Shown here piece after piece: positions 7,461-48,845 of a DNA stretch of 49,133 nucleotides. The first letter of the stretch is position 1. Every line of letters begins with the position of its first letter. The translations under genes and the position numbers were made by a program. Source of the DNA: Chloroflexota bacterium (lineage in GTDB: Bacteria > Chloroflexota > Anaerolineae > J102); the NCBI GenBank assembly GCA_013152585.1, contig JAADGC010000029.1, positions 1-49,133 of the forward strand. Reading direction: 5' to 3'. Below the pieces are notes generated by a model. It was not told where the DNA came from and did not search any database. It saw only the letters and a program-made list of their open reading frames with translations.

Positions 7461-7484
7461 TGGTTTTGGATATGGAGGACCAAG

Positions 7485-7538: not shown

Positions 7539-7567
7539 AGTATAGCATAAGCCTCATCACGGGACAA
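7539..7567 (-). promoter_or_regulatory. Sigma70-like promoter of nrdR-nrdJ
   Basis: On the minus strand TTGTCC (7567-7562) is followed after 17 bp by TATACT (7544-7539). The predicted transcript starts near 7532 and has a leader of roughly 155 nt before nrdR. Confidence 0.6.
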
Positions 7568-8244: not shown

Positions 8245-8281
8245 AAAAAGCGATCAGTGCGGTGGCAGGGAATACCGATCA
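8245..8281 (-). terminator. Probable intrinsic terminator of the dcw cluster after ftsZ
   Basis: Just past the ftsZ stop, TGATCGGT can pair with ACTGATCG (two G-U pairs) around a 15-nt loop, followed by CTTTTTGG. The stem is modest, so this is a candidate only. Confidence 0.5.
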
Positions 8282-8289
8282 GGCTGGGA

Positions 8290-9390: not shown

Positions 9391-9444
9391 ATGATTTCTC
9401 CTCTAGAGTGGGGGGCGACTTGAGCGCGAGTGAAGTGGGGGGAA

Positions 9445-10662: not shown

Positions 10663-10760
10663 GGTGGGGGTTTCGTTGGGATGAGGGGTGGGGAGGCTTA
10701 GGAATCGGGCAAAGATGAATTCCGTTTTTGAGCTTCGGGGGGTTAATTCTCGACAATCAC

Positions 10761-11627
10761 TTAGCGCCAGGTGGGTAATCGATAGCGCAGATCGATCAAT
10801 GTAACTTGCAGGTTTTCCTCCAGGATGCGCTTGCGGACAGTTTCCCAGAGGGCGATTTTTTGGCTGATGCGGTCTGGCGAGCCCAGGTACACCACCCATC
10901 CTTCGGGGCTGGCAAACCACAGGCCCAGGGGTTCCTGGTAACGGAAGGATTTGACCTCGGGCAGGGCCTGATGGATGCGCAGGACGGCATTGACGACGTC
11001 GGGATTGAGGTGCTGATCGTCGATGGCGACGGCCTGTTCTTCATCGGTGAGCACCACCAGCGCCCGGGGCTCGGCTTCGGGTGCGACCCGGCCTTCGGGG
11101 CTGACCCAGTATTGCTGGTTATGCAGCTTGTAAATGAGCACGGGCTCCCATTCCTGCAACTGGATGTGCAGGCGGGCAGGGAGTGCGGTTTGCACTGTGG
11201 CCGTTTGCACGTGCGGGAGTTGCTCGAGCCGGGTGGCAATTTCCTGGGGGTCGATGGTGTAAATAGAGCTATCATAAATGCGCAGGAAGTTGATGACATC
11301 TTCGGCACGAGTGTAGCGGTTGGTTTCGACATCAGGAAAGTATACATAAAAAGCACTATCAATCAAAGTGTAACCCAAGCCGAAGAGAGCGGCCAGCAAG
11401 ATCAGCAGGGCGCAATAATGCGAAAGGTTCCAGAACGCGGCCAACGAGTGGCTGCGGGCCTTGTGTTTCGCCCGTGTTTTGCCCTGATTCTGCCGGGCAG
11501 GGGGCGGATCGGGCAGCAGGCGCCGCGGATCAAGGACGGCGACGGACGGATGCAGGAAGCGCCGTTTTTTCTTGCGTTTGGGCCTGGCCCGAGAACGCTT
11601 GGGAGAAGATCTGTAAAATGTAGGCAT
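10761..11627 (-). CDS. ftsQ: Cell division protein FtsQ/DivIB
   Basis: 288 aa. Bitopic divisome protein that links FtsL with the late division proteins. A very basic cytoplasmic tail (about 1-65, with RPKRKKKRR) is followed by one membrane segment (about 70-93, ALLILLAALFGLGYTLI). A POTRA-like domain comes next (about 95-165, with LEQLPHVQTATVQ and LHIQLQEWEPVLIY), then the beta domain. It sits between murB::ddl and ftsA, the usual place for ftsQ. The basic tail is longer than in many homologues. Confidence 0.92.
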   Translation of the reverse strand: MPTFYRSSPKRSRARPKRKKKRRFLHPSVAVLDPRRLLPDPPPARQNQGKTRAKHKARSHSLAAFWNLSHYCALLILLAALFGLGYTLIDSAFYVYFPDVETNRYTRAEDVINFLRIYDSSIYTIDPQEIATRLEQLPHVQTATVQTALPARLHIQLQEWEPVLIYKLHNQQYWVSPEGRVAPEAEPRALVVLTDEEQAVAIDDQHLNPDVVNAVLRIHQALPEVKSFRYQEPLGLWFASPEGWVVYLGSPDRISQKIALWETVRKRILEENLQVTLIDLRYRLPTWR

Positions 11628-11647
11628 GATGCATGGGGGAGGGTGCG

Positions 11648-15186: not shown

Positions 15187-15192
15187 GATGCT

Positions 15193-15744
15193 TTAGTCTT
15201 TGACGCGGAATAGGAGCAGTACCATGACCATGCCTGCCCAGAATAAGGGGGGAACCACGTAAGGCGGCAGGAAGTTGGCTGCGGTTTCGGCAAAAGGAGA
15301 GAGGGGCAGTGTCAGCAGGCCCAGATCGACCACGGGGTATTCGTACACATCCTGGAAGTACCAGAGTGTGCCGGCGACCAGATAGCCGTTGAGCAGCCCC
15401 ACTAACAGGTTGAGGAGTAGGGCGGTGGGAGCGGTCGTGTTGGCTCGTCCCTTGATCGCAAAGGTCTCGCCGGCATAGCTGGCGAAGATAATGAGAATGA
15501 AGACAAGGCTGAAGAAGTTGCTGAGAATGTGTTGCTGCGTGCGGGGGGAAAGAGCTGTCGAGCCGATGCGCTGGACGATGAGTACCAGGATGGCAGGGAC
15601 ATATTTCTCGCCGAACTGGGTGATGACGAAGAGGGCCACAAAGATGAGCGTGGTCACGCCCAGCTCGCGGGCATAGCCGCGCACCAGCGCAAAAAAGACG
15701 AAGAAGAGGGTGATGCAAGCCCAGAGGATTTCTAGTGGTCCCAT
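15193..15744 (-). CDS. CvpA-like integral membrane protein (second of pair)
   Basis: 183 aa with about four hydrophobic segments (about 5-24, 28-55, 75-100, 155-178). It begins MGPLEILWACITLFFVFFALVRGY and has the R-G-Y/F phrase after the first helix that is common in CvpA/colicin V production family proteins. That family has been linked to cell-envelope integrity and division, but its biochemical role is uncertain. It lies 6 bp downstream of a second CvpA-like gene, and the pair is inserted between murG and murC. Family assignment is from topology and general pattern, so moderate. Confidence 0.6.
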   Translation of the reverse strand: MGPLEILWACITLFFVFFALVRGYARELGVTTLIFVALFVITQFGEKYVPAILVLIVQRIGSTALSPRTQQHILSNFFSLVFILIIFASYAGETFAIKGRANTTAPTALLLNLLVGLLNGYLVAGTLWYFQDVYEYPVVDLGLLTLPLSPFAETAANFLPPYVVPPLFWAGMVMVLLLFRVKD

Positions 15745-15750
15745 GATGCT

Positions 15751-16389
15751 TTAGTGGGTCTTGATGCTGCGCAGAGCGAAGAAAAGGATGGCGACGATGA
15801 TGATGGGGATAATCCAGGTGTTGACTTGCTGATAGAGGAGGGCAAAGGGAGCGAGGGCGATTTGTAGGCCGACTTGTCCCATGTTGGGAGCGCTCTGGCT
15901 GATGACGGCTTCGGCGCCCACCGGGGGCTGAATGGGGACTTGATCGGGCAGGGCGGGGAGGAAGAAGTAGGTGAGGACGAGTCCGTTGACGGCGCCCGCC
16001 AGCAAGCCCATGATGGGGTTGCTGCGTTTCATCTTGGCGCTGACAAGATAGCCGATGCCGATCAACGCCAGCATCATGGTGAAGAGGGCGATATCGGTGT
16101 TTTGGGCCCGGATCAACTGCGTTTGTACCCGGGTGGCGCCAGCATCACTGGTCGTCAGGCCTCGGGAGCTGCCCAGCATGAATCGCACCGTGCCGTAGGC
16201 GTTGTTGATGACGTTGACGACGGTGCTCCCCAGCAGGGTGGGCTGACCGACGGCAAAGCCGACGAATACCAGCCCCAGCTTGACCATCTCGGCAATGAGC
16301 CCGCGCTGAAAACCCTGATAGGCAAAGATGCCCAGCAAGGCCAGGAAAAGCACAGTGCGTTCAGGATCGCCGACGCTAAGGGGTTGCAT
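15751..16389 (-). CDS. CvpA-like integral membrane protein (first of pair)
   Basis: 212 aa, strongly hydrophobic. The phrase FLALLGIFAYQGFQRGLIAEMVKLG resembles the CvpA core (a helix followed by R-G and a second helix). Later helices are near 100-120, 128-147 and 185-207, and an extended loop holds PDQVPIQPPVG. The start overlaps the murG end by 14 bp, so the gene is embedded in the dcw transcript. It could arise from the same ancestor as its neighbour. No catalytic residues are expected or seen. Confidence 0.6.
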   Translation of the reverse strand: MQPLSVGDPERTVLFLALLGIFAYQGFQRGLIAEMVKLGLVFVGFAVGQPTLLGSTVVNVINNAYGTVRFMLGSSRGLTTSDAGATRVQTQLIRAQNTDIALFTMMLALIGIGYLVSAKMKRSNPIMGLLAGAVNGLVLTYFFLPALPDQVPIQPPVGAEAVISQSAPNMGQVGLQIALAPFALLYQQVNTWIIPIIIVAILFFALRSIKTH

Positions 16390-17524
16390 GGTGGGTTTGG
16401 TTCAGGCCCAAAAGGGCTGCGGCAATGGCTTCTGCGGCATGGGGCTGGGCCAGTGCTTTGCTGGCCGCGGCCATGGCCTCAAGTTGGGGACGGTTTTGCA
16501 GAAGATGGAGTGTGGTGGGGAGAAGCTGCTCGGACATGTCGGCGTCGTTCACGATCACGGCGGCGCCGCGGTCGGCCAGATAACGGGCGTTGGGGATCTG
16601 GTGTCCGCCCGAGATAGGCAGGGGCACGAGAATGGCAGGTAGCCCCACCGCCGGTAGTTCTCCCAGCGTGGCTGCCCCCGCCCGGGCGATGGCCAGATCG
16701 GCTGCCCGAAAGGCCAGGGGGAGATCTGCATCCAGATAAGGGAAGGGACGATAGGATGACCGCTGGGCCTGGCTGAGATGGGCCGCGCGTTGTTGGGCCT
16801 GGGGCCAGTCGAGCGTGCCGGTGATGTGAATCACCTGGGCCTGCGCCAGCAGGGTGGGCAGCATGGCAGCCGTGGCCACGTTGATGGAACGGGCGCCGCG
16901 GGAACCGCCAAAGATAACCACGGTGGGCCGTTCGGGATCAAGCTGGAAGTGCCGGCAAGCGGCTGCGGGGCTGGGTTCCTCGCTCAGTAATTCGGCACGC
17001 ACAGGATAACCGGTGACAAGGGCTTTGCCGGGGAAGTGCTCGGCAACCTGGGGAAAACTGACTGCCACTTTGTCGGCGTAGCGGGCCAGCCGTTGTACAG
17101 CGATGCCGGGGACCATATCGGGTAGGTAGATGAGGATGGGGACGTCCTGGCGATGTGCGGCCCATACCACCGGAGCGCAGACATAGCCGCCGGTGGCAAA
17201 TAATACATGAGGCTGCCAGCGACGGATCAGGCGCCGGGCTTCGATGGCGCCCCTCATCAGGTGCAGACCGCTGACCGCGAGTTTGAAGGGGTTGCGGATG
17301 CGCATCTGACCGGCGTGGATGGGCGCGAATTCGAGGCCGGCAGCCGTCGCCAGTCTCGATTCGATGCCATTGGCGGTGCCAGCATAGCAGAGACTGATGC
17401 CGGCAGCCGCATCAGCGTTTGTTGCGGGCATAGGCGGTGGTGCCACTTTTTTGAGGGCTGCGACCACGGTGAGTATTGGATACACGTGACCGCCGGTTCC
17501 GCCGCCAGAGACGAGGATTCGCAT
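16376..17524 (-). CDS. murG: UDP-N-acetylglucosamine--LPS-type transferase MurG
   Basis: 382 aa. Peripheral membrane glycosyltransferase that adds GlcNAc to lipid I to give lipid II. Motifs: MRILVSGGGTGGHVYPIL at the start, VVIFGGSRGARSIN in the middle, and ARAGAATLGELPAVGLPAILVPLP in the nucleotide-sugar site. The frame is open to 17773, but ATG at 17524 (preceded by GGAGGG 11 bases upstream) gives the family N-terminus. This start lies inside the 3' end of ftsW, so the two genes overlap by about 113 bp. Confidence 0.96.
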   Translation of the reverse strand: MRILVSGGGTGGHVYPILTVVAALKKVAPPPMPATNADAAAGISLCYAGTANGIESRLATAAGLEFAPIHAGQMRIRNPFKLAVSGLHLMRGAIEARRLIRRWQPHVLFATGGYVCAPVVWAAHRQDVPILIYLPDMVPGIAVQRLARYADKVAVSFPQVAEHFPGKALVTGYPVRAELLSEEPSPAAACRHFQLDPERPTVVIFGGSRGARSINVATAAMLPTLLAQAQVIHITGTLDWPQAQQRAAHLSQAQRSSYRPFPYLDADLPLAFRAADLAIARAGAATLGELPAVGLPAILVPLPISGGHQIPNARYLADRGAAVIVNDADMSEQLLPTTLHLLQNRPQLEAMAAASKALAQPHAAEAIAAALLGLNQTHHATP

Positions 17525-36046: not shown

Positions 36047-36085
36047 CCTGAGCCCCGAATTCGTTTCGCCGGGGCTTCTCTCAGG
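36047..36085. terminator. Stem-loop between convergent genes
   Basis: CCTGAG and GCCCCG pair with CGGGGC and CTCAGG, with a 4-nt bulge, around the gap between the kinase-like gene and the tetR-type gene. There is no T-run on either side, so terminator function is uncertain. A TCCTGAGTGAAGCGAAGGAG dispersed fragment lies just upstream. Confidence 0.4.
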
Positions 36086-36785
36086 ATTGGAAAATAGTTT
36101 CCCGGAAGTCTTGCTCAACTGCCAGCGCATCCCAGTTTTCTACTGGCTGCCAGCCATAGCCATCCAACAACAGGCGATAGTTCTTTTTTACGGCTTCGAT
36201 GGCATCTGCCAGGCCTACTTGGCGGATGTCATCGAAGGATTGCACCAGTCTGTGAAAACCAACCGTGATGGACCACAGACCAAAGATGATGTCCCCCTCG
36301 ATGACCCATCCCCTCTGCAAATCACCCTCTGCCAGTGCGTCTCGGATGATGCCGAGGACGACCTCGCTGCAGCGTTGTTCCATCGCCACCATGGTGCGAT
36401 ATCTCTCTTCGGTCGCCCGTTTCCAAATGGATGGCGACGAAGCCAGCCGCTCGATGTCGAACGTCTCGGGGTTGGACTCGGCGAGCATAAGGCGCACGAT
36501 GAGGATGCCGTAGGCGCGGTCGCGAGATGGCCGTTTGGCCTGTCGTACCTGCTCGAACAGCAGAGCCCTTTGGCTAATGGATTGCACGGCCAGGGCGACC
36601 AGCAGGTCCTCTTTAGTTTCAAAATGTCGATAGAGCGTCCCCACCGAATACTCAACTGCCTTGGCCAACTCCGACATCGTCAGGCTTAAAAAGCCCTTAT
36701 CGTGAATGAGTCGACGAGCCGTGCCCAGGATAAGGTTCTCCCGTTCCCCCCATTGTCGTTTGCGTCGCTCACTTGTTACAGTCAT
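36081..36785 (-). CDS. TetR/AcrR-family transcriptional regulator
   Basis: 234 aa. The N-terminal helix-turn-helix reads TARRLIHDKGFLSLTMSELAKAVEYSVGTLYRHFETKEDLLVAL (typical TetR signature, residues about 22-66). The rest is a helical ligand-binding domain with no recognised ligand. The start has AGGAG ten bases upstream, and the site overlaps a perfect palindrome. It is divergent from the B12-riboswitch methyltransferase operon. By analogy with other divergent TetR genes it probably controls that operon in response to the transported substrate or a product. Confidence 0.92.
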   Translation of the reverse strand: MTVTSERRKRQWGERENLILGTARRLIHDKGFLSLTMSELAKAVEYSVGTLYRHFETKEDLLVALAVQSISQRALLFEQVRQAKRPSRDRAYGILIVRLMLAESNPETFDIERLASSPSIWKRATEERYRTMVAMEQRCSEVVLGIIRDALAEGDLQRGWVIEGDIIFGLWSITVGFHRLVQSFDDIRQVGLADAIEAVKKNYRLLLDGYGWQPVENWDALAVEQDFRETIFQS

Positions 36786-36893: not shown

Positions 36894-36910
36894 TTGACAG
36901 CTTAGGTCAA
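36894..36910. promoter_or_regulatory. Candidate TetR operator over the -35 box
   Basis: TTGACAGCTTAGGTCAA: perfect TTGAC/GTCAA arms with a 7-bp spacer. The left arm is part of the -35 element of the methyltransferase operon, so binding would block RNA polymerase. Confidence 0.45.
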
Positions 36911-36922
36911 ATCAAGTATACT
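36894..36922 (+). promoter_or_regulatory. Promoter of the methyltransferase/transporter operon
   Basis: A perfect TTGACA (36894-36899), a 17-bp spacer and TATACT (36917-36922). The predicted transcript begins near 36929 and has a leader of about 540 nt before the first gene. Confidence 0.85.
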
Positions 36923-36988: not shown

Positions 36989-36999
36989 GCTTCCTCTCC
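36989..36999 (+). promoter_or_regulatory. Putative antiterminator arm
   Basis: GCTTCCTCTCC is the exact reverse complement of the terminator 5' arm (GGAGAGGAAGC at 37196-37206) and nearly identical to the terminator 3' arm. It could capture the 5' arm and keep the terminator open, enclosing the riboswitch in the loop. It can also form a small local hairpin (TCTCC with GGAGA at about 37007). Confidence 0.5.
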
Positions 37000-37044
37000 G
37001 AATCTTGGAGAAGGAGCCTGGTGTCTCGTGTGAACCCACTCTTG

Positions 37045-37170
37045 TGTTTGCAGAGACTCCCGGTGCGAAGTTCGGTGAATCGCTATCGAGGCGAAAAACC
37101 GGCGCTGTCCCGCAACTGTAAGGTCAGGTTGATCCCAAGTGCCTGACCAAGCCAGACCGCTTGCTGTCCA
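37045..37170 (+). ncRNA. Cobalamin riboswitch aptamer
   Basis: The conserved core CTGTCCCGCAACTGTAAG (37105-37122) follows CCGGCG. Next is a 7-bp stem (GGTCAGG 37122-37128 with CCTGACC 37142-37148), then the B12-box-like GCCAGACCGCTTGC (37151-37164). Upstream, CCCGGTGCGAAG and TTCGGTGAATCG form the expected 5' part. The order matches the Rfam cobalamin family. It lies between the strong promoter and an intrinsic terminator, so it should control transcription read-through into the corrinoid methyltransferase operon. Exact ends are approximate. Confidence 0.9.
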
Positions 37171-37195
37171 CCTTTCAATGACGCATTTCCTCCGA

Positions 37196-37240
37196 GGAGA
37201 GGAAGCCGATCCCGCAAGGATGAGGTTTCCTCTCCTTTTT
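37196..37240 (+). terminator. Riboswitch-associated intrinsic terminator
   Basis: GGAGAGGAAGCC (37196-37207) pairs with GGTTTCCTCTCC (37224-37235; one G-U), followed by TTTTTGTTTT. It lies 25-30 bp past the aptamer, the normal place for an expression platform. Confidence 0.88.
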
Positions 37241-37466
37241 GTTTTACCCATTAACGCATAGGCTGGCATAGCCACAACCAAAGGCATTCACAACCCGGTG
37301 AACCTGGAATCCGGTAGACCGGGGATAGGCGGCGTCACTTCCACCGGCCCGGTTTTCGGGTCTACCGGTCACCTTGTTTACCTCGACCAAGATTAACGCA
37401 TACCTCGCACATTCTGCGGACAAACCATGTATTTAGCCGATCATCTCGAAGGAATTCGGAGACATC
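37241..37466 (+). other. Leader between terminator and first gene, with a large hairpin
   Basis: No gene. A long hairpin occupies 37297-37373: GGTGA pairs with TCACC, then CCGGTAGACC with GGTCTACCGG, with nested CCGGG/CCCGG inside. No T-run follows, so it is not an obvious terminator. ATTAACGCATA occurs at both ends of the stretch (about 37251 and 37393). GGAG at 37458-37461 is the ribosome site for the GTG at 37467. Confidence 0.6.
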
Positions 37467-39416
37467 GTGGCCATTCATCATTCTGCGTCCGAATCTAAAC
37501 ATAAGGTCGTCCTTCAGCCCTCGGGACGTAGTGGCATGGTGCCCGAGGGGATCACGCTTTTGGAGGCGGCGCGACGGTTGGGCGTGGGGATCGAGGCCAT
37601 CTGTGGGGGGCGAGAAAGCTGTAATAAGTGCATGGTACGGGTGGAAGAAGGCATGTTTCCCCAATATGATCTGCATTCCCTGGCTTCCCACCTGAGCCCA
37701 CCCGGCGAACGGGAATTGGCGTTCCGGCGGCGGGGGATTTTACCGTCGGGCTATCGCTTTTCGTGTACGGCGCGGGTGCGGGGTGATGTGCTGGTGACAG
37801 TGCCAGAGGAAAGTCGGGCGCAGAAGCAGGTCGTGCTCAAGCAGGCGTCCGGGCGAGCCATTGTCGTAGACCCTATTGTGCGCCTGCACTATCTCGAATT
37901 GGAGCCGACTCGGGCGGGCGACAGGGCCGACCGCCAGCGCCTATTATGCGAACTCGAACGTCGTTTCGGCTTGTCTGGCGTCGAGTTCGATTATCTCGCC
38001 CTGCGCGAGCTGTCAGAAACGCTACATAAAGCCGATGGTGCGGTGACGCTTACCGTGTGGGATCAGCGGCTGGTGATTCGCGTGCAGCCCGGCTACCATG
38101 AACAGCCGCTGGGCCTGGCGGTCGATGTGGGCTCGACCACTTTGGCCGCGTATCTGTGTGACCTGCGTACGGGCGAACTGTTGGCCACGGCCACGGACAT
38201 GAACCCCCAGGTGACCTATGGCGATGACATCATGTCGCGCATTTCTTACGCCAACGAGGTGGCCAGCGGCCGCGATCGCCTGCATGGCGCCGTCATTCGC
38301 GCCATCAACCAACTGGCCCGGAATGCTACCCGGCAGGTGGGGTTGCGCGTCAGGGATATCGTCGATATGACGATGGTGGGGAACAGTGTCATGCACCATT
38401 TGGCACTGAACCTGCACCCGCGGTCCCTGGGCGTGGCCCCCTTCATTCCCGTGGTCGAGGATGCTCTCGATCTGAAGGCCTCCGCAATCGGCCTACGCTT
38501 TCATCCCGGCGCCCGCCTGCATGTCTTGCCCCTGGAGGCTGGCTTTGTGGGCGCCGACAATGTGGGCGTGATCCTCTCGGAGCAGCCTCATCGACAGGAT
38601 GAAGTGATGCTCGTGATCGATGTGGGCACCAATGGCGAATTGTTGCTGGGCAATCGCGAACGCCTGTTGTGTACATCCAGCCCCACCGGCCCCGCCCTCG
38701 AAGGCGCGCAGATCACCCACGGCATGCGGGCTGCACCCGGCGCCATCGAGCGCATTCGCATCGATCCCGAAACCCTGGACGTGCGCTTCAAGGTCATCGG
38801 CGAGGAGCGCTGGAGTGACGAATTACCACCGGGAAAAATCCAGGCGCGGGGCATTTGTGGATCGGGCATCATCGAAGCGGTGGTGGAACTGTTCGCCGCC
38901 GGAGTGATCACGGCCAGTGGGCGTTTCGCCAGGGGATTGGATACGCCGCACCTGATCGAAAGCGACGGCCTGAAAGCCTTTGTGCTGGTCGACGCCACCC
39001 AATCGGCCACGGGGTCTCCCATCGTGGCGTCGCAACGGGATGTGCGCAACATCCAACTTGCCAAGGCCTCACTGCTTGTGGCCGCGCAATTGCTCATGCA
39101 GGAGTGGGGCGTCGATGCCGTTGACCGCATCGTTCTGGCGGGGGCATTCGGCAATGTGATTGATCCGGCCTACGCCCTGGCATTGGGCATGATCCCCCCC
39201 TGCCCTCTCGATAAAATAACTTCGGCTGGCAATGCCGCCGGTGACGGCGCCTGTATTGCCTTACTCAACAGAGCGATGCGTCTTGAGGCTGCAGGCGTCG
39301 CCCGTTGGGTCGAGCATGTAGACCAGCCGTTGGCAGATGAGTTTCAGTCCCTCTTTATGGCAGCCCTATCATTTCCCCCCATCCCCGAGGCGATTTATGC
39401 AACAAGACGAAAGTAA
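37467..39416 (+). CDS. Reductive activator of corrinoid enzymes (RACE; RamA-like ferredoxin-ASKHA protein)
   Basis: 649 aa from GTG at 37467. Uses electrons through an iron-sulfur cluster and ATP to reduce inactive Co(II) corrinoid back to Co(I). The N-terminal plant-type [2Fe-2S] ferredoxin domain has Cys46, Cys52, Cys55 and Cys100 (CGGRESCNKC and FSCTARV). A linker leads to the ASKHA ATPase domain: GLAVDVGSTTLAAYLCD near residue 213, TMVGNSVMHHLALNLHP, MLVIDVGTNGELLLGN, SPTGPALEGAQI and ARGICGSGIIEAV. This is the [2Fe-2S] bacterial type, not the [4Fe-4S] methanogen RamA. First gene of the operon; it overlaps the corrinoid protein start by 20 bp. Confidence 0.93.
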   Translation: MAIHHSASESKHKVVLQPSGRSGMVPEGITLLEAARRLGVGIEAICGGRESCNKCMVRVEEGMFPQYDLHSLASHLSPPGERELAFRRRGILPSGYRFSCTARVRGDVLVTVPEESRAQKQVVLKQASGRAIVVDPIVRLHYLELEPTRAGDRADRQRLLCELERRFGLSGVEFDYLALRELSETLHKADGAVTLTVWDQRLVIRVQPGYHEQPLGLAVDVGSTTLAAYLCDLRTGELLATATDMNPQVTYGDDIMSRISYANEVASGRDRLHGAVIRAINQLARNATRQVGLRVRDIVDMTMVGNSVMHHLALNLHPRSLGVAPFIPVVEDALDLKASAIGLRFHPGARLHVLPLEAGFVGADNVGVILSEQPHRQDEVMLVIDVGTNGELLLGNRERLLCTSSPTGPALEGAQITHGMRAAPGAIERIRIDPETLDVRFKVIGEERWSDELPPGKIQARGICGSGIIEAVVELFAAGVITASGRFARGLDTPHLIESDGLKAFVLVDATQSATGSPIVASQRDVRNIQLAKASLLVAAQLLMQEWGVDAVDRIVLAGAFGNVIDPAYALALGMIPPCPLDKITSAGNAAGDGACIALLNRAMRLEAAGVARWVEHVDQPLADEFQSLFMAALSFPPIPEAIYATRRK

Positions 39417-40083
39417 CATCGAAGTCATGCGCGAGAGGCTGCGCGCCGGCATCACAGCCGGTAATAAGCTGCAGGGTGTGCAACTGGCCCAGGAGGCGTT
39501 GGCGGCCCAGATGTCGCCACTGGAATTCTTTCACGCCGTCATCGATCCGGTGCTGGTAGAAGTCGGCGATCGTTTTTCCCGCCTGGAAATATTTCTGCCG
39601 GAGCTGATGCGGGCGGGGATGGTTGTGAAAGCGATGCAGGAAGAGGTGCTGGAACCAGCGGTGCTGGTGGGGACAGGGGAAAGCAGCATCGTTGGCCGGG
39701 TCGTCATCGGCGCCTGTCAGGGTGATATTCATGATATCGGTAAAAATATGGTGGCGTTGATGCTCCAGGTCAATGGCTTTGAGGTCACGGATTTGGGCAC
39801 CAACGTGGCTCCCCGCACCTTCATCGAGACCGCTCGCCAGAAGCAGGCGGACATCATCGCCATGTCTTCACTGTTGACCACCTCGATGCCCTACATCCGA
39901 GATCTGGTGCAGTTGCTGGAAGGCTACGGCCTGCGCGATCAGTTCCTTGTCGTCGCCGGCGGCGCCGCCGTGACCCACGATTGGGCGCAGTCTGTGGGAG
40001 TCGATGGCTTCGGCGAAGACGCGGTGGAGGCTGTCAATGTCTGCCAGAATTTGTTATTGCCCCGTAAGGAGGGCCATGTATGA
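39397..40083 (+). CDS. Corrinoid protein A (MtbC/MttC-type methyl carrier)
   Basis: 228 aa from ATG at 39397, preceded by GAGG. The N-terminal helical cap (about 1-95; FHAVIDPVLVEVGDRFSRLEIFLPELMRAG) is the B12-binding-2 domain. The C-terminal Rossmann domain has GDIHDIGKNMVALML, the D-x-H-x-x-G motif whose His ligates cobalt, then MSSLLTTSMPYIRD and VVAGGAAV. It carries the methyl group from methyltransferase A to the next acceptor. Its stop overlaps the methyltransferase start by ATGA, so the two are probably made in matched amounts. Confidence 0.95.
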   Translation: MQQDESNIEVMRERLRAGITAGNKLQGVQLAQEALAAQMSPLEFFHAVIDPVLVEVGDRFSRLEIFLPELMRAGMVVKAMQEEVLEPAVLVGTGESSIVGRVVIGACQGDIHDIGKNMVALMLQVNGFEVTDLGTNVAPRTFIETARQKQADIIAMSSLLTTSMPYIRDLVQLLEGYGLRDQFLVVAGGAAVTHDWAQSVGVDGFGEDAVEAVNVCQNLLLPRKEGHV

Positions 40084-41462
40084 GAAACACCACGCGTTTA
40101 CTCGATGTTTTGGACAGGATGGAGTCCGGCCCCATCGTGGAGGAGTCGCAATGGGACATGTTCATGGTCCCCGACGAGGTCGCCCGCGTGCAGGTCGAAT
40201 TTGATATCGATCTGAACGCACTCGGCGACAAGCTGGTTTCCGCTGACGATGCCCTGGCCGACCGCGTATTCGCGGCGGGACTGACGCTGGCCGAGCGCCT
40301 GGGTGTTTACTGCATCAGCACCTCGCGCCAGATCAAGTTTAGCCGGGCGGAGATCCTTGCCGCCCTGGCCGTGGCCCCCACCGAGGTGACGTTTGGCGAA
40401 GGCGGCGACCGTCACACCGAGCGCAAGCGTCAGGTCGAAGACCCCGCCCATCTCACGATCAAAGGCGGCGGCGTGGGCACGCCCATTCCCGAGCATCTAT
40501 ACCTGGCCGTGCATCAATCCTACGCCCAGGAGTCGCTGGTCGATGGCATGATCAATTGCACGCTGGAGCGAGTCTATGGCCGCGAGATACGCAGTCGTTC
40601 GCCCTGGGAGGTGCTGGGCGGATGGCACGAGGTCGAGTTGACCAAGGCCGCTTGTCGTCGCGCCGGTCGGCCGGGATTGGGTCTGGGCTGTGTGGAGAAT
40701 GCGGTGTCAGAATTATCCGAGCTGTCGGCGACTTCGTATGGGGGCTTCAGCCCCAATGACTGGCATCACATCGCCATGATATCCGAATTCAAGACCGACT
40801 ACGGTGCGCTCACCAAGCTGGCTCATCTCGTGCGCACGGGCAGCGTCATTCACGCCTTCTACAATACCATTTATGGTGGCTCGGTGGGCGGCAAAGAGGG
40901 CATGGCCATCGCCATTGTGGCCGGCAGCATCCTCTTACAGATGATCTACATGACCAATACTCATTCGGTCTCTCCCGCCCATCCTTTTTACGACAACGAC
41001 ACCACGCCGGAGATCATTCAGGCTATCAGCGTGGGCCATCAGGCACTGGCCCGCAACAGCCGCCTGCTCACCGATCTCGTGATCACGCCGGTGAGCGGAC
41101 CCGGTACAAGCACCCTGTTGTACGAAACCGCCGCCATGGCGATTATGGCGGCAGCGTCGGGAAGCTGTGGCCTGATCGGACCTCGCTCTGCCGCCGGCAT
41201 CCATCCCGCCCATGTCTCTGGCCTGGAAGCGCGCTGGATGGCAGAGGTGGCGCACGCGGCCGCGGGCATTTCGCGGGGCGAGGCCGATGCCCTGGTGCGG
41301 CAACTGGTGGCGTTGTATCAACCTACTCTGAATAAACGCCCCATCGGAAAACCCTTCCCCGAAGTCTACGATCCCGTCATGCTTCGGCCTTCGCCAGAGT
41401 GGCAGGGCACGTATGAGGTGGTCAAACAAGAACTCGCACAAATGGGATTGGCCATCCCCTGA
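40080..41462 (+). CDS. MttB-superfamily corrinoid methyltransferase A (no pyrrolysine)
   Basis: 460 aa, standard for trimethylamine methyltransferase (COG5598) relatives. The open frame has no internal amber codon, so it belongs with the non-pyrrolysine group that includes glycine betaine, proline betaine, carnitine and butyrobetaine demethylases. Visible family features: ERLGVYCISTSRQIKFSRAEIL, GGGVGTPIPEHLYLAVHQSY, NAVSELSELSATSYGGF, the GGSVGGKEGMAIAI turn and GPRSAAGIHPAHVSGLEARWMAEVAHA. It transfers a methyl group from an N-methylated (usually quaternary amine) substrate to corrinoid protein A. Substrate unknown; it differs clearly from methyltransferase B. Confidence 0.92.
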   Translation: MRNTTRLLDVLDRMESGPIVEESQWDMFMVPDEVARVQVEFDIDLNALGDKLVSADDALADRVFAAGLTLAERLGVYCISTSRQIKFSRAEILAALAVAPTEVTFGEGGDRHTERKRQVEDPAHLTIKGGGVGTPIPEHLYLAVHQSYAQESLVDGMINCTLERVYGREIRSRSPWEVLGGWHEVELTKAACRRAGRPGLGLGCVENAVSELSELSATSYGGFSPNDWHHIAMISEFKTDYGALTKLAHLVRTGSVIHAFYNTIYGGSVGGKEGMAIAIVAGSILLQMIYMTNTHSVSPAHPFYDNDTTPEIIQAISVGHQALARNSRLLTDLVITPVSGPGTSTLLYETAAMAIMAAASGSCGLIGPRSAAGIHPAHVSGLEARWMAEVAHAAAGISRGEADALVRQLVALYQPTLNKRPIGKPFPEVYDPVMLRPSPEWQGTYEVVKQELAQMGLAIP

Positions 41463-41942: not shown

Positions 41943-43337
41943 ATGCAAAGTAACTGGTTAGTCGAAATTATGAAACGGGCGCAAAGCGGCCCGTACATCA
42001 AAGAAAAGGAGTTTGAGTTGGCGCTGATTAAGCGGATCAGGAAACTGGTCAAGGAGTATGGCATCAAATACGATGCCAATACGCTTGTCCCCGCGGATGA
42101 TGGCATGGCCGACCGCGTCTTTCAGGCAGGCCTGGACCTGTTCGTCGAATTCGGCGCTTACTGCCAGTCCACCGAACGCCAAATCCTCTTCAGTCGCGAT
42201 GAGGTGCTGGATATTCTCGCCATGGCACCTTCCTCCGTCACCCTGGGCACGGGCAAGGACGCCGTGGTCATGCGCCACCGCGGCGTCGAGGATCCTACAC
42301 CGGCCACGATGCACTCTGGCCCCACCGGTACGCCTGCCTCCGAAAAGTATCATCCCCAGATCCTGCTCTCGTGTGCCCAAGAGCCGTTGGTAGATTGTCT
42401 GGGCGCGGGCTCGGTGGCCACCTACCTGGGCGCGGACATCATTCCCGGCACACCGCTGGAGCTGCTGGGTGCTCGCCGCGACGCCAGTGTGGCCCGCGAG
42501 GCCGTGCGCATGGCCGGACGACCGGGTATGCACATCAACGATGTGGCCGTATCCCTCACTTGTGCCGGCAAGATGGCAGCCTGCGATCCCGACGCCGGTC
42601 TGCGTCCCAGCGATGGCATTCTCGTTTCGCAGATGGTGGAGCTCAAGACCGATTTCGATCAGCTCTCCCGCGTGGCCCATCTCTACAACATCGGTGGCAT
42701 CACTGTCGATCTGATGACGCCGTTGCTGGGGGGACTGGGGGGTCGGGCCGAGGGCACGGCGGTGGTGTCGGTGGCGGATCATCTGCTGGGTGTCGTGCTC
42801 TATGATGTGGATTACCACATGTTCTCGCTCACCCATCTGAACTACGTCAATAACACCGATCCGATGGGCATCTGGACGCAAGCCATGGTAGGCCAGGCCC
42901 TCTCGCGTAACACCCCCATCATCCTGCTCAACGACATCTACGTCCTCTCCGGTCCCGGCACGACCGAGCTGCTGTACGAATGTGCGGCGGGGGCAATGGT
43001 AGGGACCGTGTGTGGCTTCAACATGCAAGGGGCAGGCACAACCGGCGGCTTCAATCGCGACCACACCACCGGTTTGGAGGCGCGCTTCATCGCCGAAACC
43101 TCACGGGCGTCGTTGGGGTTCAGTCGTGAGGAAGCCTCGGAATTAATCCCCGAAATCATGAAGGGCTACATCCACACCCTTTCCAACCCCAACCGCGGAC
43201 GTCCTTTCCCCGAAGTGTATGATGTGGAGACCGTTCAGCCTACAGCAGAATGGCTGGATATGACCTATTCTGTCAAAGAAGAACTTAGCAAGCTTGGCAT
43301 CAATTTTCAATACGCTCCCCGGCCCATCTCTTCGTAA
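41943..43337 (+). CDS. MttB-superfamily corrinoid methyltransferase B (no pyrrolysine)
   Basis: 464 aa; GAGGAG lies seven bases before the ATG. Same fold family as methyltransferase A and also without an in-frame amber codon. Comparable blocks: LFVEFGAYCQSTERQILFSRDEVL, GPTGTPASEKYHPQILLSC, GRPGMHINDVAVSLTCAGK, VLSGPGTTELLYECAAGAM and TTGGFNRDHTTGLEARFIAETSRA. The N-terminal half diverges from A, including substrate-side loops, so the two enzymes probably act on different methylated compounds or different N-methyl states. It is followed after 13 bp by its own corrinoid protein. Confidence 0.92.
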   Translation: MQSNWLVEIMKRAQSGPYIKEKEFELALIKRIRKLVKEYGIKYDANTLVPADDGMADRVFQAGLDLFVEFGAYCQSTERQILFSRDEVLDILAMAPSSVTLGTGKDAVVMRHRGVEDPTPATMHSGPTGTPASEKYHPQILLSCAQEPLVDCLGAGSVATYLGADIIPGTPLELLGARRDASVAREAVRMAGRPGMHINDVAVSLTCAGKMAACDPDAGLRPSDGILVSQMVELKTDFDQLSRVAHLYNIGGITVDLMTPLLGGLGGRAEGTAVVSVADHLLGVVLYDVDYHMFSLTHLNYVNNTDPMGIWTQAMVGQALSRNTPIILLNDIYVLSGPGTTELLYECAAGAMVGTVCGFNMQGAGTTGGFNRDHTTGLEARFIAETSRASLGFSREEASELIPEIMKGYIHTLSNPNRGRPFPEVYDVETVQPTAEWLDMTYSVKEELSKLGINFQYAPRPISS

Positions 43338-43350
43338 GGAGGAACGCTTC

Positions 43351-44010
43351 ATGAGTATCCCTGAATCTATCGCAAAACCACTCTACGACGCCTTTATCGA
43401 GGGCGACGAGGACGCCGCCAACGAATTGACGCAACAGGCACTCCAGGCCGGGCTCGATCCCCTGGAGATCATCAACACCGTTATAGTGCCGGCGCTCACC
43501 GAGGTCGGGCGCCTGTTTCAACTGGGAGAATTCTTTTTGCCAGAGTTGATGATGGCGGGCGAGGCCGCGGAGGTTGCCAGTAAGCACCTCGAAGCCGCCA
43601 TTATCGTCTCGGGGCAGGCCAGCCAAAAACTGGGCACTGTTGTGTTGGGAACGGTCGAAGGTGATGTGCACGAGATCGGTAAGAACATCGTGGCGACCAT
43701 GCTGCGTGCCCATGGCTTCGAGGTGGTCGACCTGGGACGAAACGTCTCGCCCAGCGCCTTCGTCGATGCCGCCCAAGAGCGTAAAGCCCATGTGATCGGC
43801 CTGTCTTCGTTGATGACCACCACGCGTCCGGCTGCCCAACACACGATTCAGCTATTCTCAGAATTGGGATTGCGGGACCAGTATAGCTTGATGGTCGGCG
43901 GTGGCTCTGTCACCGAGGAGTGGGCTTCTGAGCTTGGTGTCGGATATTCCCCAGATGCCGCTGGTGCGGTAGAATTGTGTAAACGACTCGTCGGGATCAA
44001 CCCTTCATAG
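43351..44010 (+). CDS. Corrinoid protein B (MtbC/MttC-type methyl carrier)
   Basis: 219 aa from ATG at 43351, with AAGGAGG eight bases upstream. The cap domain has ELTQQALQAGLDPLEIINTVIVPALTEVG and FFLPELMMAGEAAEVA. The Rossmann domain has GDVHEIGKNIVATMLRAHGFEVVDLG (cobalt-ligating His in D-V-H-E-I-G), GLSSLMTTTRPAAQ and MVGGGSVTEEWASELG. Partner of methyltransferase B. The gene order (enzyme then carrier) is the mirror of pair A (carrier then enzyme). Confidence 0.95.
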   Translation: MSIPESIAKPLYDAFIEGDEDAANELTQQALQAGLDPLEIINTVIVPALTEVGRLFQLGEFFLPELMMAGEAAEVASKHLEAAIIVSGQASQKLGTVVLGTVEGDVHEIGKNIVATMLRAHGFEVVDLGRNVSPSAFVDAAQERKAHVIGLSSLMTTTRPAAQHTIQLFSELGLRDQYSLMVGGGSVTEEWASELGVGYSPDAAGAVELCKRLVGINPS

Positions 44011-44095: not shown

Positions 44096-45124
44096 ATGAA
44101 ACCCCGTAAGTATTGGATCTTGTTGGCTCTTCTTACCGCTATCCTTTTATTGGCGGCATGTGCCACACCTCCCCCTCCTGCAGCTTCGACCTCCGTGCCT
44201 GAAGCAGCCCCCGCCGAAACAACGGGCGCAGGGAGCATTGCTGTTATCCTCACCGGTCCATGGGATGATAATTCCTGGAACGAAGCCGGCTATGATGCCG
44301 TGCAGGCATTGGGAAAGAAAGGCGCCAAGATCGCCTATTCTGAGAACGTATCCGATGTCGATGTCGGGCGCGTGTTGCGCGAATACACCGATCAGGGCTT
44401 CGAGATGATCGTCGCCCACTCTTTCAGTTTTCAGGACCCCACCTTCGAGGTCGCAGCCGAGCATCCCGAGACCAACTATGCCTGGGCGGGCGGCATCGGT
44501 CGCACGGCCAAGAACGTGGCTGACTACGATCAGCCTTTCTACGAGGCAGCCTATCCCATCGGCGTGCTGGCCGGGTACATGAGCAAGAGCGGCGTCTTGG
44601 GGGCGCTGTATGGCTTCGATATCCCCGTGTGCCATGCCATGGGTGAAGCGCTCCTCGCCGGCGCCAAGACTGTGAACCCGGACGCCACTTTGATCCAGAC
44701 GGCGGTCGGAGATTGGGTGGATGTCGCCAAGGCCAAGGAGGCTGCTCTGGCTCAGGTAGATGCCGGGGTAGACTTCTGGATCGAATGTGGTGAAGGTCCC
44801 GCCCTGGGTGCCATCGAAGCGGCCAAGGATCGCGGTGGCTATGTCACCGGCTACGTGGGCGATATGACCGAGAACGGCCCGGACGTGGTTCTGGTCAATC
44901 TAATCTGGAACCTGGAACCCTTGTTCAGTCAGATGCTCGAAGACACGCACAACGGCACTTTCGACAATCCTTACTATCGTTTCGGAATTGCCGAAGGGGC
45001 CATGTTGGTGCAATATAACGAGCAGTTGAAGGACAAGATTCCGGCTGAAGCCGTCGCCGCCGTCGACAAGGCCATGAAAGACATCGCCGCCGGCACCCTG
45101 AAGGTCGAGTTTGTCCCCCAGTAA
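44096..45124 (+). CDS. BMP-family ABC transporter substrate-binding lipoprotein
   Basis: 342 aa. Signal peptide with lipobox LLAAC (lipidated Cys22), then a Pro/Ala/Thr-rich spacer and the periplasmic-binding-protein fold. Family features: VILTGPWDDNSWNEAGYDAV (usual D-x-S-F/W-N), EMIVAHSFSFQDP, YAWAGGIGRTAKNVADYDQPFYEAAYPIGVLAG, GALYGFDIPV and GYVGDMTENGPDVVL. BMP/PnrA-type proteins usually bind nucleosides, but the family also serves other ligands. Here it is placed with corrinoid demethylases, so a methylated ligand is inferred. AAGGAG precedes the start. Confidence 0.9.
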   Translation: MKPRKYWILLALLTAILLLAACATPPPPAASTSVPEAAPAETTGAGSIAVILTGPWDDNSWNEAGYDAVQALGKKGAKIAYSENVSDVDVGRVLREYTDQGFEMIVAHSFSFQDPTFEVAAEHPETNYAWAGGIGRTAKNVADYDQPFYEAAYPIGVLAGYMSKSGVLGALYGFDIPVCHAMGEALLAGAKTVNPDATLIQTAVGDWVDVAKAKEAALAQVDAGVDFWIECGEGPALGAIEAAKDRGGYVTGYVGDMTENGPDVVLVNLIWNLEPLFSQMLEDTHNGTFDNPYYRFGIAEGAMLVQYNEQLKDKIPAEAVAAVDKAMKDIAAGTLKVEFVPQ

Positions 45125-45130
45125 AGCGTA

Positions 45131-45156
45131 GTCGGGCGTATTCATAACGCCCCGAC
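45131..45156 (+). other. Hairpin after the lipoprotein gene (first of two)
   Basis: GTCGGGCGT pairs with ACGCCCCGAC (one bulged C) around a 7-nt loop, 7 bp past the stop. No T-run. Confidence 0.5.
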
Positions 45157-45161
45157 GCACC

Positions 45162-45197
45162 GCGGTGGGGGGGAGCTTCGCACCTCACCCCCACCGC
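45162..45197 (+). other. Hairpin after the lipoprotein gene (second of two)
   Basis: GCGGTGGGGG pairs perfectly with CCCCCACCGC, and an inner GAG pairs with CTC. It is very stable but lacks a T-run. Such stem-loops often protect the upstream binding-protein mRNA so that it is made in excess over the membrane parts. Confidence 0.6.
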
Positions 45198-45250
45198 CAT
45201 ACTGATTCCTCTCCTTTCATCCGCCTTTACGCCGGTTTCATGAGGTTCCC

Positions 45251-46798
45251 TTGACCACCACGTCCCCTCCCATTGTGCAAATGCGCGGCATCGTCAAGCG
45301 CTTTCCCGGTGCCCTCGCCAATGCTGGCGTGGATTTTGATCTGTTGCCCGGGGAAATCCACGCCTTGTTGGGGGAGAATGGGGCCGGGAAAACCACGCTG
45401 ATGAATATCCTGTACGGGCTTTATATGCCCGACGAGGGGGAGCTGCGCCTGTATGGGCAGCCGGTGGCGTTCTCCTCAGCCCGAGACGCTATCGCCCATG
45501 GTCTGGGCATGGTGCACCAACATTTTATGCTGGTACAAACCCTGACTGTATCGGATAACATCATTCTCGGGCAGCGGTCGCCACGCTCACCGTTGCTGGA
45601 GGATACGAAAAAGGTACATCAGCGCCTCCATGCCCTGTCTGAGCGCTACGGATTGGCCATCGACCCGGCGGCAGAGCTGTGGAAGTTATCGGTGGGTGAG
45701 CAACAGCGGGTAGAGATTCTGAAGGCGCTTTATCGTGGCGCCGATATCTTGATCTTGGACGAGCCGACCGCTGTGCTCGCCCCCCAGGAAGTGGACGAAC
45801 TGCTGGAGATTTTGCACCGCCTGACGGAAGAAGGTAAATCCATCGTTTTCATATCGCACAAGTTAGACGAGGTGCTGAAGACCAGCGACCGCATCACTGT
45901 GTTGCGCGATGGAAAGGTGGTCGCCACGGTGAAACCGGCCGACGTGGATAAGCAGATGCTGGCGCGCATGATGGTTGGTCGGGATGTGTTGCTGACTGTA
46001 GCCAAAGGTGTGGCCAAACCGGCGGAACCCCGTCTACGCGTCATCGATCTTTGGGCCAACAGTGATCGCAATCTTCCTGCTTTACGCGGCATCAATCTCG
46101 AAGTGAGATCGGGCGAGATTTTAGGCATCGCCGGCGTGGCCGGCAATGGCCAGAGTGAGCTGGAGGAAGTGATCGCGGGGTTGAGACGGGAGACGAGCGG
46201 TCGGGTGCAGATATGCGGTCAGGAAGCCACCCATAGCACGCCTCGCCAGATCGGCCAGATGGGCCTGGCCCACATCCCATCTGATCGCTATCGCATGGGC
46301 CTGCTGCCCGATTTTACGGTGGCCGAGAATATGTTCCTGCAGCGCATTGGCGATCCTCCCTTTACCCGGCGGGGATTTTTGAACTGGAATATGATTCGCA
46401 GCAAGGCGCAGGAGCTGATCTCGGCGTATAATGTGCGTGGAGCCACGGGCGATACAACGGCGGGCTCTCTTTCGGGCGGCAATGCCCAAAAAATGATCCT
46501 GGCCCGGGAGCTGACGCGGAATCCCAAGGTGCTCTTGGCGGCGCAACCGACGCGCGGGCTGGATGTGAGTGCGGTGGCGTATGTGCACGAGCAGCTCGTT
46601 AAGCAGCGAGACGGAGGCGTGGCGATCCTGCTGATCTCGACGGAACTGGACGAGATATTGGCGCTCAGTGACCGGATCGCAGTGTTGTATGAAGGGGAGG
46701 TGGTGGGAGTTATCGACGCGGCTAATGCCGATATCAACGAAATCGGCCTGTTGATGGCCGGGTCCAAACATATGGAGCACTCGGAGGCGACGGCATGA
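45251..46798 (+). CDS. BMP-type ABC transporter ATP-binding protein (two ATPase domains)
   Basis: 515 aa from a TTG start at 45251 preceded by GAGG. Two fused nucleotide-binding domains. The first has GENGAGKTTLMN (Walker A), LSVGEQQRVEILKAL (signature) and ILILDEPTAVL (Walker B). The second has GVAGNGQSELEEV, LSGGNAQKMILAREL and VLLAAQPTRGLDV. The missing Asp-Glu in the second Walker B is the usual condition in YufO/NupA-type and sugar-type double ATPases, so it is not a defect. It energises import through the two permeases that follow. The stop overlaps the first permease start (ATGA). Confidence 0.94.
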   Translation: MTTTSPPIVQMRGIVKRFPGALANAGVDFDLLPGEIHALLGENGAGKTTLMNILYGLYMPDEGELRLYGQPVAFSSARDAIAHGLGMVHQHFMLVQTLTVSDNIILGQRSPRSPLLEDTKKVHQRLHALSERYGLAIDPAAELWKLSVGEQQRVEILKALYRGADILILDEPTAVLAPQEVDELLEILHRLTEEGKSIVFISHKLDEVLKTSDRITVLRDGKVVATVKPADVDKQMLARMMVGRDVLLTVAKGVAKPAEPRLRVIDLWANSDRNLPALRGINLEVRSGEILGIAGVAGNGQSELEEVIAGLRRETSGRVQICGQEATHSTPRQIGQMGLAHIPSDRYRMGLLPDFTVAENMFLQRIGDPPFTRRGFLNWNMIRSKAQELISAYNVRGATGDTTAGSLSGGNAQKMILARELTRNPKVLLAAQPTRGLDVSAVAYVHEQLVKQRDGGVAILLISTELDEILALSDRIAVLYEGEVVGVIDAANADINEIGLLMAGSKHMEHSEATA

Positions 46799-47856
46799 CT
46801 GCACCCATCTCTGAATTGCCTGCGCATCCATCTCGGGCAAGATCATTGGCCCGGGCCTTGGGTGCTCCTCTGGTCGGCGGGATCATGGGTCTATCGATCG
46901 GCGCCATATTGGTTTTGCTGGCCGGAGCCAACGTGGGCGAGGTGTACTGGGCGATGCTGCGTGGTGCTTTTGGCGGCCAACGTCAGATCACCGAAACGTT
47001 CCTTAAAGCGACGCCATTGCTCATCGTGGGCCTGGGCTTGACGGTGGCTTTTCGGGCTCGGGTGTGGAATATCGGCGGGGAGGGGCAGTTTTTTATGGGG
47101 GCGTTGTTTGGTAGCGTCATAGCCCTTTCTTTTCCGAATTTACCTCAGCCCCTGTTGCTGATGATGATGCTGATGGCGGCCGCGATTGGTGGCATGTTGT
47201 GGGCGTTGCTGGCGGCATACATGAAAGTGCGGTGGAATGTGAATGTCATCATCTCCACCCTGATGTTGAACTACATTGCCCTTTTCTTCGTGCTCTACAT
47301 GGCCCGAGGCCCCCTCCAGGACCCGGGCGGATACCTGCCGGAAAGTGCCCAGTTTGTGGCGGCAGCGCGTATGCCGCATCTCTTCGGCACGCGCATTCAT
47401 TTGGGCGTGCTGCTGGCATTTCTGTTAGTCCCGTTTGTGTATGTGTTACTTTGGTCCACTCCCCTGGGTTTTCGTCTGCGCGCTGTGGGGTCTCGCGCCA
47501 GTGTCGCCCGCTACGCCGGCATCAACGTCGAGCGGGCCATCCTCTTCGTCATGGGCTTCAGCGGCGCCCTGATCGGCCTGGCCGGCATCATCGAAGTGAG
47601 TAGCTTGCACACACGGTTGAAAGGCGATATCTCCGGCGGGTATGGTTTCACCGGCATATTGGTGGCATTGCTGGGGCGCATGAATCCGGTGGGGGTGGCA
47701 GTGGCGTCGATTCTTTTCGCGGCGCTGATTATCGGCGCCGAATCCATGCACGTCGTCTCAGGTCTGCCCGACGCCCTGGCAGATGCAATTCAAGCGATCA
47801 TTGTGCTTTCGGTGTTGGCTGTAGATGCGCTGGTGAGAAGGAGGCAAAACCGATGA
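46795..47856 (+). CDS. BMP-type ABC transporter permease 1
   Basis: 353 aa, eight to ten membrane helices. Resembles YufP/NupB of nucleoside-type importers: GLTVAFRARVWNIGGEGQFF, the AAYMKVRWNVNVIISTLMLNYIA stretch, and RLRAVGSRASVARYAGINVERA, the coupling-helix region that contacts the ATPase. It ends with the typical helices and RRRQNR. It overlaps the ATPase and the next permease by 4 bp at each end. Confidence 0.93.
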   Translation: MTAPISELPAHPSRARSLARALGAPLVGGIMGLSIGAILVLLAGANVGEVYWAMLRGAFGGQRQITETFLKATPLLIVGLGLTVAFRARVWNIGGEGQFFMGALFGSVIALSFPNLPQPLLLMMMLMAAAIGGMLWALLAAYMKVRWNVNVIISTLMLNYIALFFVLYMARGPLQDPGGYLPESAQFVAAARMPHLFGTRIHLGVLLAFLLVPFVYVLLWSTPLGFRLRAVGSRASVARYAGINVERAILFVMGFSGALIGLAGIIEVSSLHTRLKGDISGGYGFTGILVALLGRMNPVGVAVASILFAALIIGAESMHVVSGLPDALADAIQAIIVLSVLAVDALVRRRQNR

Positions 47857-48845
47857 ATTGGGACCAGATTTTGCAGTGGAGTTTTCTCATCGCCCTGATC
47901 ACGGCTGCGGTACGTCTGGCATTGCCCGTGCTGCTGGCGACTTTGGGCGAAATTATCACGGAGCGTAGCGGTATTTTGAATTTGGGATTGGAGGGGATGA
48001 TGATCATGGGTGCTGTGAGTGGATTCATGGCCGCCTATTATCTCGAAAATGGACCGTTGGCGGGTATCACCGGTGCCTGGAGCACGTGGCTGGGCCTGGC
48101 GGTCGGCTTTTTCACGGGCATGGCCATGGGCCTGCTCATGGCGGTTCTCAGCATCTCGTTGCAGGTGGATCAGGTGATCGCCGGGGTGACGCTGGTGGTT
48201 TTCGGACAGGGCATGGCCAATTATCTTTATCGCCAGGAATTCAGCTCGTTGACGGCGCGGGTCTCGGGGCTGGAGCCGGTATCGTTCCCCCTCTTGAGCC
48301 ATATCCCCGTGCTCGGCGATCTTCTTTTCAACTATGATGCGACGGTCTATCTCACTGTGTTGCTGGTGTTCGTCATCTGGTTCCTGTTGTTCCGCACTAC
48401 CTGGGGGCTGAATATCCGTGCCGTGGGCGAGAATCCTGCCGCCGCGGAGACTTCGGGCGTGAACGTGGTGCTTGTTCGCTATGTCTCTACTTTATTGGGG
48501 TCTGGTTTGGCCGGGCTGGGCGGGGCAGTCCTTACGGTGGTGCAATTGCGCATGTTTCGCGAGGGAATTACGGCCGGTCGAGGCTGGATCGCCGTGGCGT
48601 TGGTCATCTTTGCCCGCTGGCGCCCGGGGCTGGCGCTGGTGGGTGCTTTTCTGTTCGGGCTGGCCGATGCCCTGCAATATCGCATCCAGGCTCTGAGTCA
48701 GGTCGAGCGCGGGGCTGGCGTTATCCCTTACGAATTTTTGTTGATGTTACCTTATGTGCTGACGTTGCTGGCGCTGCTTTACCGCCGGGGCCGGGCAGAC
48801 GCGCCGGCGGCATTGGGCCGACCTTATTCTCAGGAAACACATTAG
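47853..48845 (+). CDS. BMP-type ABC transporter permease 2
   Basis: 330 aa, polytopic. Resembles YufQ/NupC: LATLGEIITERSGILNLGLEGMMIMGA at the N-terminus, GVTLVVFGQGMANYLYRQEF, LNIRAVGENPAAAETSGVNV (coupling region) and GRGWIAVALVIFARWRPG. Paired with permease 1 to form the transmembrane channel. Last gene of the module. No methyl-corrinoid:tetrahydrofolate methyltransferase gene follows within the window. Confidence 0.93.
   Translation: MNWDQILQWSFLIALITAAVRLALPVLLATLGEIITERSGILNLGLEGMMIMGAVSGFMAAYYLENGPLAGITGAWSTWLGLAVGFFTGMAMGLLMAVLSISLQVDQVIAGVTLVVFGQGMANYLYRQEFSSLTARVSGLEPVSFPLLSHIPVLGDLLFNYDATVYLTVLLVFVIWFLLFRTTWGLNIRAVGENPAAAETSGVNVVLVRYVSTLLGSGLAGLGGAVLTVVQLRMFREGITAGRGWIAVALVIFARWRPGLALVGAFLFGLADALQYRIQALSQVERGAGVIPYEFLLMLPYVLTLLALLYRRGRADAPAALGRPYSQETH

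Follow-up and report, generated by a model that had tools for sequence, protein, structure and literature searches.

A predicted activating corrinoid riboswitch ahead of B12-using methyltransferase genes in Anaerolineae

Introduction

Why would a corrinoid riboswitch stand ahead of genes that use B12, and in which direction would it act on them? The categories of the cobalamin regulon in a published survey are biosynthesis, transport, cobalt and isozymes, not B12-using enzymes (PMC3766115). The window analysed here—a stretch of 49,133 nucleotides from a Chloroflexota bacterium of the class Anaerolineae—raises this question because a first-pass annotation placed a B12 riboswitch before B12-using genes. 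That placement is confirmed by our analysis, in which a divergent aptamer and a terminator precede an operon for RACo, corrinoid proteins and MtmB-family methyltransferases (Table 1).

Results

The aptamer is a distant relative of known ones. With default settings, Rfam gave no hit in the window; the match to RF00174 appeared only at a lower threshold, spanning the full model (1-189) with an E value of 0.011 in a 721-base stretch and 0.74 in the whole window. With 19.4 bits against a gathering score of 31.5, it is best described as a divergent homologue of the family and not a curated member. The doubt raised by this weak score is removed by two other loci at which the leader is conserved and its P6, P3 and terminator helices carry compensatory changes. 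In a sister species of the same genus (G001:C84), where it precedes the same RACo gene, the whole leader is 77% identical (E 3e-61), while in another genus (G003:C60), where it precedes a non-homologous MttB-superfamily methyltransferase gene, the stretch that runs from aptamer core through terminator shows 76% identity (E 5e-26). The conserved core, GCUGUCCCGCAACUGU plus AGCCAG with the L5 sequence, is found exactly at 37104-37119 and is common to the class members that pass the RF00174 cut-off. UCC in L5 and GGA in L13 (37196-37198) are both present and conserved, and form a predicted kissing pair. The apical loop of P6, UUGAUCCC, was considered as L5 and rejected, the literature consensus and the alignments giving GC-UGUCCC-GC.

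The expression platform is where a sign can be read. The terminator hairpin (37195-37236, followed by TTTTT at 37236-37240) has a 5' arm that starts inside L13 and takes in the entire 3' arm of P13; bases 37199-37205 are common to the two stems, which cannot coexist. The L13 motif, CGNGGA, is that of most corrinoid riboswitches in the class, and the inner terminator stem covaries between the window, G001 and G003. Because P13 and the terminator use the same RNA strand, a P13 stabilised by ligand would exclude the terminator, an arrangement that, by analogy with characterised switches, predicts activation.

To place the window among its relatives, 140 distinct corrinoid riboswitches gathered across the class Anaerolineae were sorted by a rule that is blind to genes and considers only P13 and the terminator, which gave 103 with a separate terminator, 18 with a shared strand and 19 unclassified. 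Seventeen of the 18 shared-strand calls are credible; the other, L206, with its poor U-tract, is a probable false positive. Most of the 17 precede corrinoid-dependent systems, namely methyltransferases with RACo or diol dehydratase, with the qualifications that L102, L112 and L114 finish at or near contig ends, the first two showing ABC importer genes only, and that in L097 and L137 P13 and the terminator overlap at the stem base only. Four further shared-strand loci were called by eye, and the protein behind one of them (L169) is a candidate corrinoid-linked protein. A narrow P13 pattern, searched across 400 genomes of the phylum, matched the window alone.

Among the 103 separate-terminator loci, typed through cluster representatives with a few singletons left without identity, no corrinoid-dependent enzyme was identified. 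Their first downstream proteins include secreted alpha-toroid proteins (a cluster of 56), Peripla_BP_2 binding proteins (30), CobT (9), CbiA (4) and CobA (3), as well as CbiM, CbiQ, CbiX and FecCD, and the typed representatives are mostly genes for B12 or cobalt uptake (BtuF-type among them) or synthesis and secreted proteins. By analogy with transcobalamin-like folds, the alpha-toroid proteins may be involved in B12 uptake; a PDB search gave squalene-cyclase-like matches only. The contrast of 17/18 with 0/103 (Fisher test, p = 8e-20) is descriptive only, the loci being related, and it should be read knowing that the activation hypothesis was formed on family f1, that L097-L216 were fetched later and that every locus was already known when the rule was adjusted to its final form. 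The shared-strand loci are spread over seven families, and eleven genomes (G000, G001, G003, G009, G033, G188, G203, G209, G278, G295 and G324) hold both platform types with the same gene split, the gene behind the separate-terminator copy of G003 being cut off by the contig end. In separate-terminator loci, pairing of the P13 3' strand with the terminator 5' arm is moderately stronger than in re-paired controls (-10.5 vs -9.6), and a metE-like off mechanism is plausible for them, if weakly tested.

Base changes in the shared strand are accompanied by changes in both of its partners, a three-way covariation seen over 17 loci. The first base, G with C in P13 and C in the terminator, becomes A with T and T in L101 and L105; the second changes from A-T-T to G-C-C in L105, and the third from G-C-C to A-T-T in L081 and L102. 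The aptamers differ too: on a strict count, ACC follows AGCCAG in 13/21 shared-strand riboswitches vs 2/104 others, and also in L071 and L086 if the anchor is placed by eye. Since L004, L114, L137 and L169 resemble the ordinary class at this site, a repeated origin of the shared-strand platform is probable.

The genes behind the leader in the window bear on what it could serve. The first-pass annotation held that they all need corrinoid, which stands for RACo, the two corrinoid proteins and the two MtmBs and is a little too broad given the ABC importer (44096-48845 in full). This importer is of the BMP/PnrA type and not the BtuCDF type, its best NCBIfam matches are putative B6 ABC models, and no corrinoid link was recognisable by Pfam or NCBIfam. 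Both MtmBs have another residue at the pyrrolysine position, as defined by the TAG of a pyrrolysine-containing relative, and, with the importer alongside, these enzymes may demethylate a compound other than methylamine.

Upstream, the promoter looks like a near-perfect sigma-70 type, and the two palindromes, the second lying just 3' of the expected transcription start, are likely TetR operators. In locus L061 (genome G007), the same TetR gene, promoter and first transcribed bases are followed directly by RACo, without a riboswitch. As a separate observation, an inverted-repeat element (CCGGTAGACC ... GGTCTACCGG, 37292-37380) lies between the terminator and RACo; similar copies occur in tandem after MtmB in L061 (9405-9474), and a search of the window's own genome with the repeat at 37285-37395 gave one weak second copy.

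Table 1. Features of the window and downstream genes of other shared-strand riboswitches (coordinates are those of the window unless another locus is named)
Feature	Position or locus	Strand	Basis or downstream genes
TetR-family regulator gene, divergent	36081..36785	-	Pfam TetR_N 2e-15; kept in L061, G001
Predicted sigma-70 promoter, TTGACA (36894-36899), 17-base spacer, TATACT (36917-36922)	36894..36922	+	sequence; kept in L061, G001
Candidate TetR operator TTGACagcttagGTCAA, covering the -35	36894-36910	+	palindrome TTGAC-N7-GTCAA; kept in L061, G001
Second candidate TetR operator TTGAATAATAGTCAA	36951..36965	+	palindrome TTGA-N7-TCAA; kept in L061, G001; putative role
Extra 5' strand complementary to shared P13/terminator strand	36989..36999	+	duplex -24.4 kcal/mol
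Corrinoid riboswitch aptamer, RF00174-like	37002..37182	+	cmscan 19.4 bits; kept at G001:C84, G003:C60
L5 kissing-loop sequence UCCCG	37108..37112	+	UCCCG consensus cited in PMC10653944; kept in aligned homologues
P13 hairpin UUUCCUC[CGAGGA]GAGGAAG	37186..37205	+	homologous P13 in classified riboswitches; -7.3 kcal/mol
Intrinsic terminator, stem GGAGAGGAAGCC/GGUUUCCUCUCC, tail UUUUU	37195..37240	+	-27.2 kcal/mol; compensatory changes in G001, G003
RACo, reductive activator of corrinoid proteins	37467..39416	+	Pfam RACo_C_ter 3e-83, Raco_middle, RACo_linker, Fer2
Corrinoid protein, MtbC/MtgC-like	39337..40083	+	Pfam B12-binding 4.7e-27
MtmB-family methyltransferase without pyrrolysine	40080..41462	+	Pfam MtmB 5.6e-97; PDB MtmB E 5e-69; Gly at Pyl position
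Second MtmB-family methyltransferase without pyrrolysine	41943..43337	+	Pfam MtmB 3.8e-100; Asn at Pyl position
Second corrinoid protein	43294..44010	+	Pfam B12-binding 1.6e-25
BMP-family ABC importer: binding protein, ATPase, first permease	44096..47856	+	Pfam Bmp, ABC_tran, BPD_transp_2
Shared strand	window, L089		RACo/MtmB
Shared strand	L073, L078, L081, L086, L097		MttB methyltransferases
Shared strand	L004, L113; L114 by similarity (contig ends)		corrinoid protein, URO-D methyltransferase, RACo
Shared strand	L137, L159		branched-chain-type ABC importer, then MttB genes
Shared strand	L158		oxidoreductase, then pterin methyltransferase, corrinoid protein, MttB
Shared strand	L102, L112		branched-chain-type ABC importer, no methyltransferase before contig end
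Shared strand	L101 / L220 (G324:C26) 2746-16400		PocR-type sensor kinase and response regulator, then microcompartment gene, B12-dependent diol dehydratase (Pfam E 1.6e-302), its reactivase
Shared strand	L105		PocR-type sensor kinase and response regulator, then acetate kinase, reactivase/EutJ-like ATPase
Shared strand, by eye, degenerate	L071 / L222 (own genome, G000:C57)		five MttB-like genes, pterin methyltransferase, corrinoid proteins
Shared strand, by eye	L098		pterin methyltransferase, corrinoid protein, MttB
Shared strand, by eye	L168 / L223 (G260:C38) 1720-3439		PceA-like reductive dehalogenase, PDB E 4e-35
Shared strand, by eye	L169 (G260:C113)		455-aa protein, signal-like start, no Pfam match

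Discussion

The main outcome of this study is the prediction, to which we give a probability of roughly 0.78, that the window's leader acts in cis, at the level of transcription, as a corrinoid riboswitch switching its genes on. Its observed basis consists of the homology of the aptamer, the incompatibility of P13 with the terminator, the conservation of the leader and the association with B12-using genes. An activating switch was one of the readings offered by the first-pass annotation, and the shared strand together with the near-exclusive link to B12-using genes across the class supports it, the sign being a prediction. We infer ligand binding, the direction of the response and the role of TetR, and take the coupling between kissing loop and P13 from published work. 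RNA polymerase would start near 36929 when TetR is off its operators, and the aptamer and P13 would be synthesised before the terminator is complete. With a corrinoid bound, L5 (UCCCG) would kiss L13 (CGAGGA) and hold P13 together; P13 would then occupy bases 37196-37205, without which the terminator has no 5' arm, and polymerase would continue into the genes for RACo, both corrinoid proteins and the MtmB-type methyltransferases. With corrinoid absent, the terminator (-27 kcal/mol) would displace P13 (-7 kcal/mol) and transcription would stop at 37236-37240, such that apo-methyltransferases would be made only if their cofactor exists.

Comparison with characterised systems highlights important similarities and differences. 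In this class of riboswitches, the ligand acts by stabilising P13 via the kissing loop (PMC10653944). The closest precedent is cobT of Alkalihalobacillus halodurans, an activating switch in which, as shown experimentally, P13 and the terminator cannot form together and P13 acts as antiterminator (PMC10653944). As in the window, the 3' arm of P13 doubles as the 5' arm of the terminator, and its L5-L13 kissing loop matches the one predicted in the window; unlike in the window, where the genes use B12, the switch controls a B12-synthesis gene and its best ligand is cobinamide (PMC10653944). The repressing metE switch of Priestia megaterium shares with the window the aptamer class and L5 UCCCG, along with the kissing loop and the control by transcription termination that are predicted there, but its P13 is compatible with a separate terminator, as in the 103 separate-terminator loci (PMC10653944). 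The window lacks this metE-type layout, a separate terminator downstream of P13 whose 5' arm pairs in the free state with the P13 3' arm; its own terminator begins inside L13. In Listeria monocytogenes pocR, B12 also ends up favouring genes for B12-dependent enzymes, although there an off-switch silences an antisense RNA, whereas in the window the sign would be built into the sense leader (PMC9943018). In the open-licence literature, we found one activating corrinoid riboswitch plus this antisense case, and no activating ones linked to methyltransferases.

The most serious rival is an ordinary off-switch, with terminator formation favoured by ligand and the 5' strand at 36989-36999 acting as antiterminator when ligand is absent. 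Almost every known corrinoid riboswitch is repressing (PMC10653944), and pairing between this strand and the 5' arm of the terminator is strong: the duplex reaches -24.4 kcal/mol vs -11.5 in shuffles, with 0/100 of them attaining the former value, and the minimum-energy fold keeps the shared strand bound to it up to the completion of the terminator. Such a strand did not, however, reach significance in any of 16 other shared-strand leaders, among them the two closest homologues, and it was rejected as a general antiterminator; any ligand-stabilised P13 would block the terminator, and such a switch would shut a cofactor-using pathway when the cofactor is plentiful. We therefore consider repression improbable. 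In an activating leader, the same strand may, according to the folding model, allow some ligand-free read-through and hence a leaky uninduced state. It is very unlikely that the leader is a non-functional relic or passive attenuator with no corrinoid response, as could be argued from the weak Rfam score and from the reduced pairing beside J6/3 in the window, G001 and G003, given that the leader is 77% conserved with compensatory changes in three helices and that L5 and L13 are kept. Least credible of all is the mixed logic entertained by the first-pass annotation, in which a repressing switch controls uptake of a corrinoid or precursor by the importer at the operon end, since that importer is akin to putative B6 importers, unlike the BtuF/FecCD genes behind ordinary riboswitches, and since L061 carries the same TetR-promoter-RACo-MtmB block without any riboswitch.

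The activating riboswitch that we favour also has a history that can be partly read from its relatives. Rfam detects no riboswitch in L061 or in the MtmB loci L062-L065 and L067, so the riboswitch does not go back to a common ancestor of all MtmB loci, and comparison of these loci points to either a gain in the window's genus or a loss in the others. That these loci lack it, while a close copy serves the MttB gene in G003, suggests that the leader is a movable regulatory cassette. In the window, this cassette would sit behind a TetR that probably reports the substrate, so that substrate and cofactor are probably needed together for the operon.

The window's leader most likely belongs to a group of activating corrinoid riboswitches that control B12-using genes; the group is widespread and, it seems, hitherto undescribed. 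The choice of ligand in this riboswitch class is influenced by J6/3, which makes a different ligand possible for the ACC subgroup. We tentatively propose, rating it somewhat below even odds, that Anaerolineae sort riboswitch sign by gene function—repressing for B12 supply, activating for B12 use—and that most of the activating ones also share the ACC aptamer variant, maybe sensing another corrinoid form (methyl-, hydroxo- or incomplete). If the activating reading is true, the sign of a B12 riboswitch would be readable from sequence, correct annotation would be possible for many uncultured loci, and natural B12-inducible switches would be at hand for biosensors. It would also mean that, across a whole bacterial class, methyltransferases, diol dehydratase and a reductive dehalogenase are controlled by antitermination that B12 induces directly.
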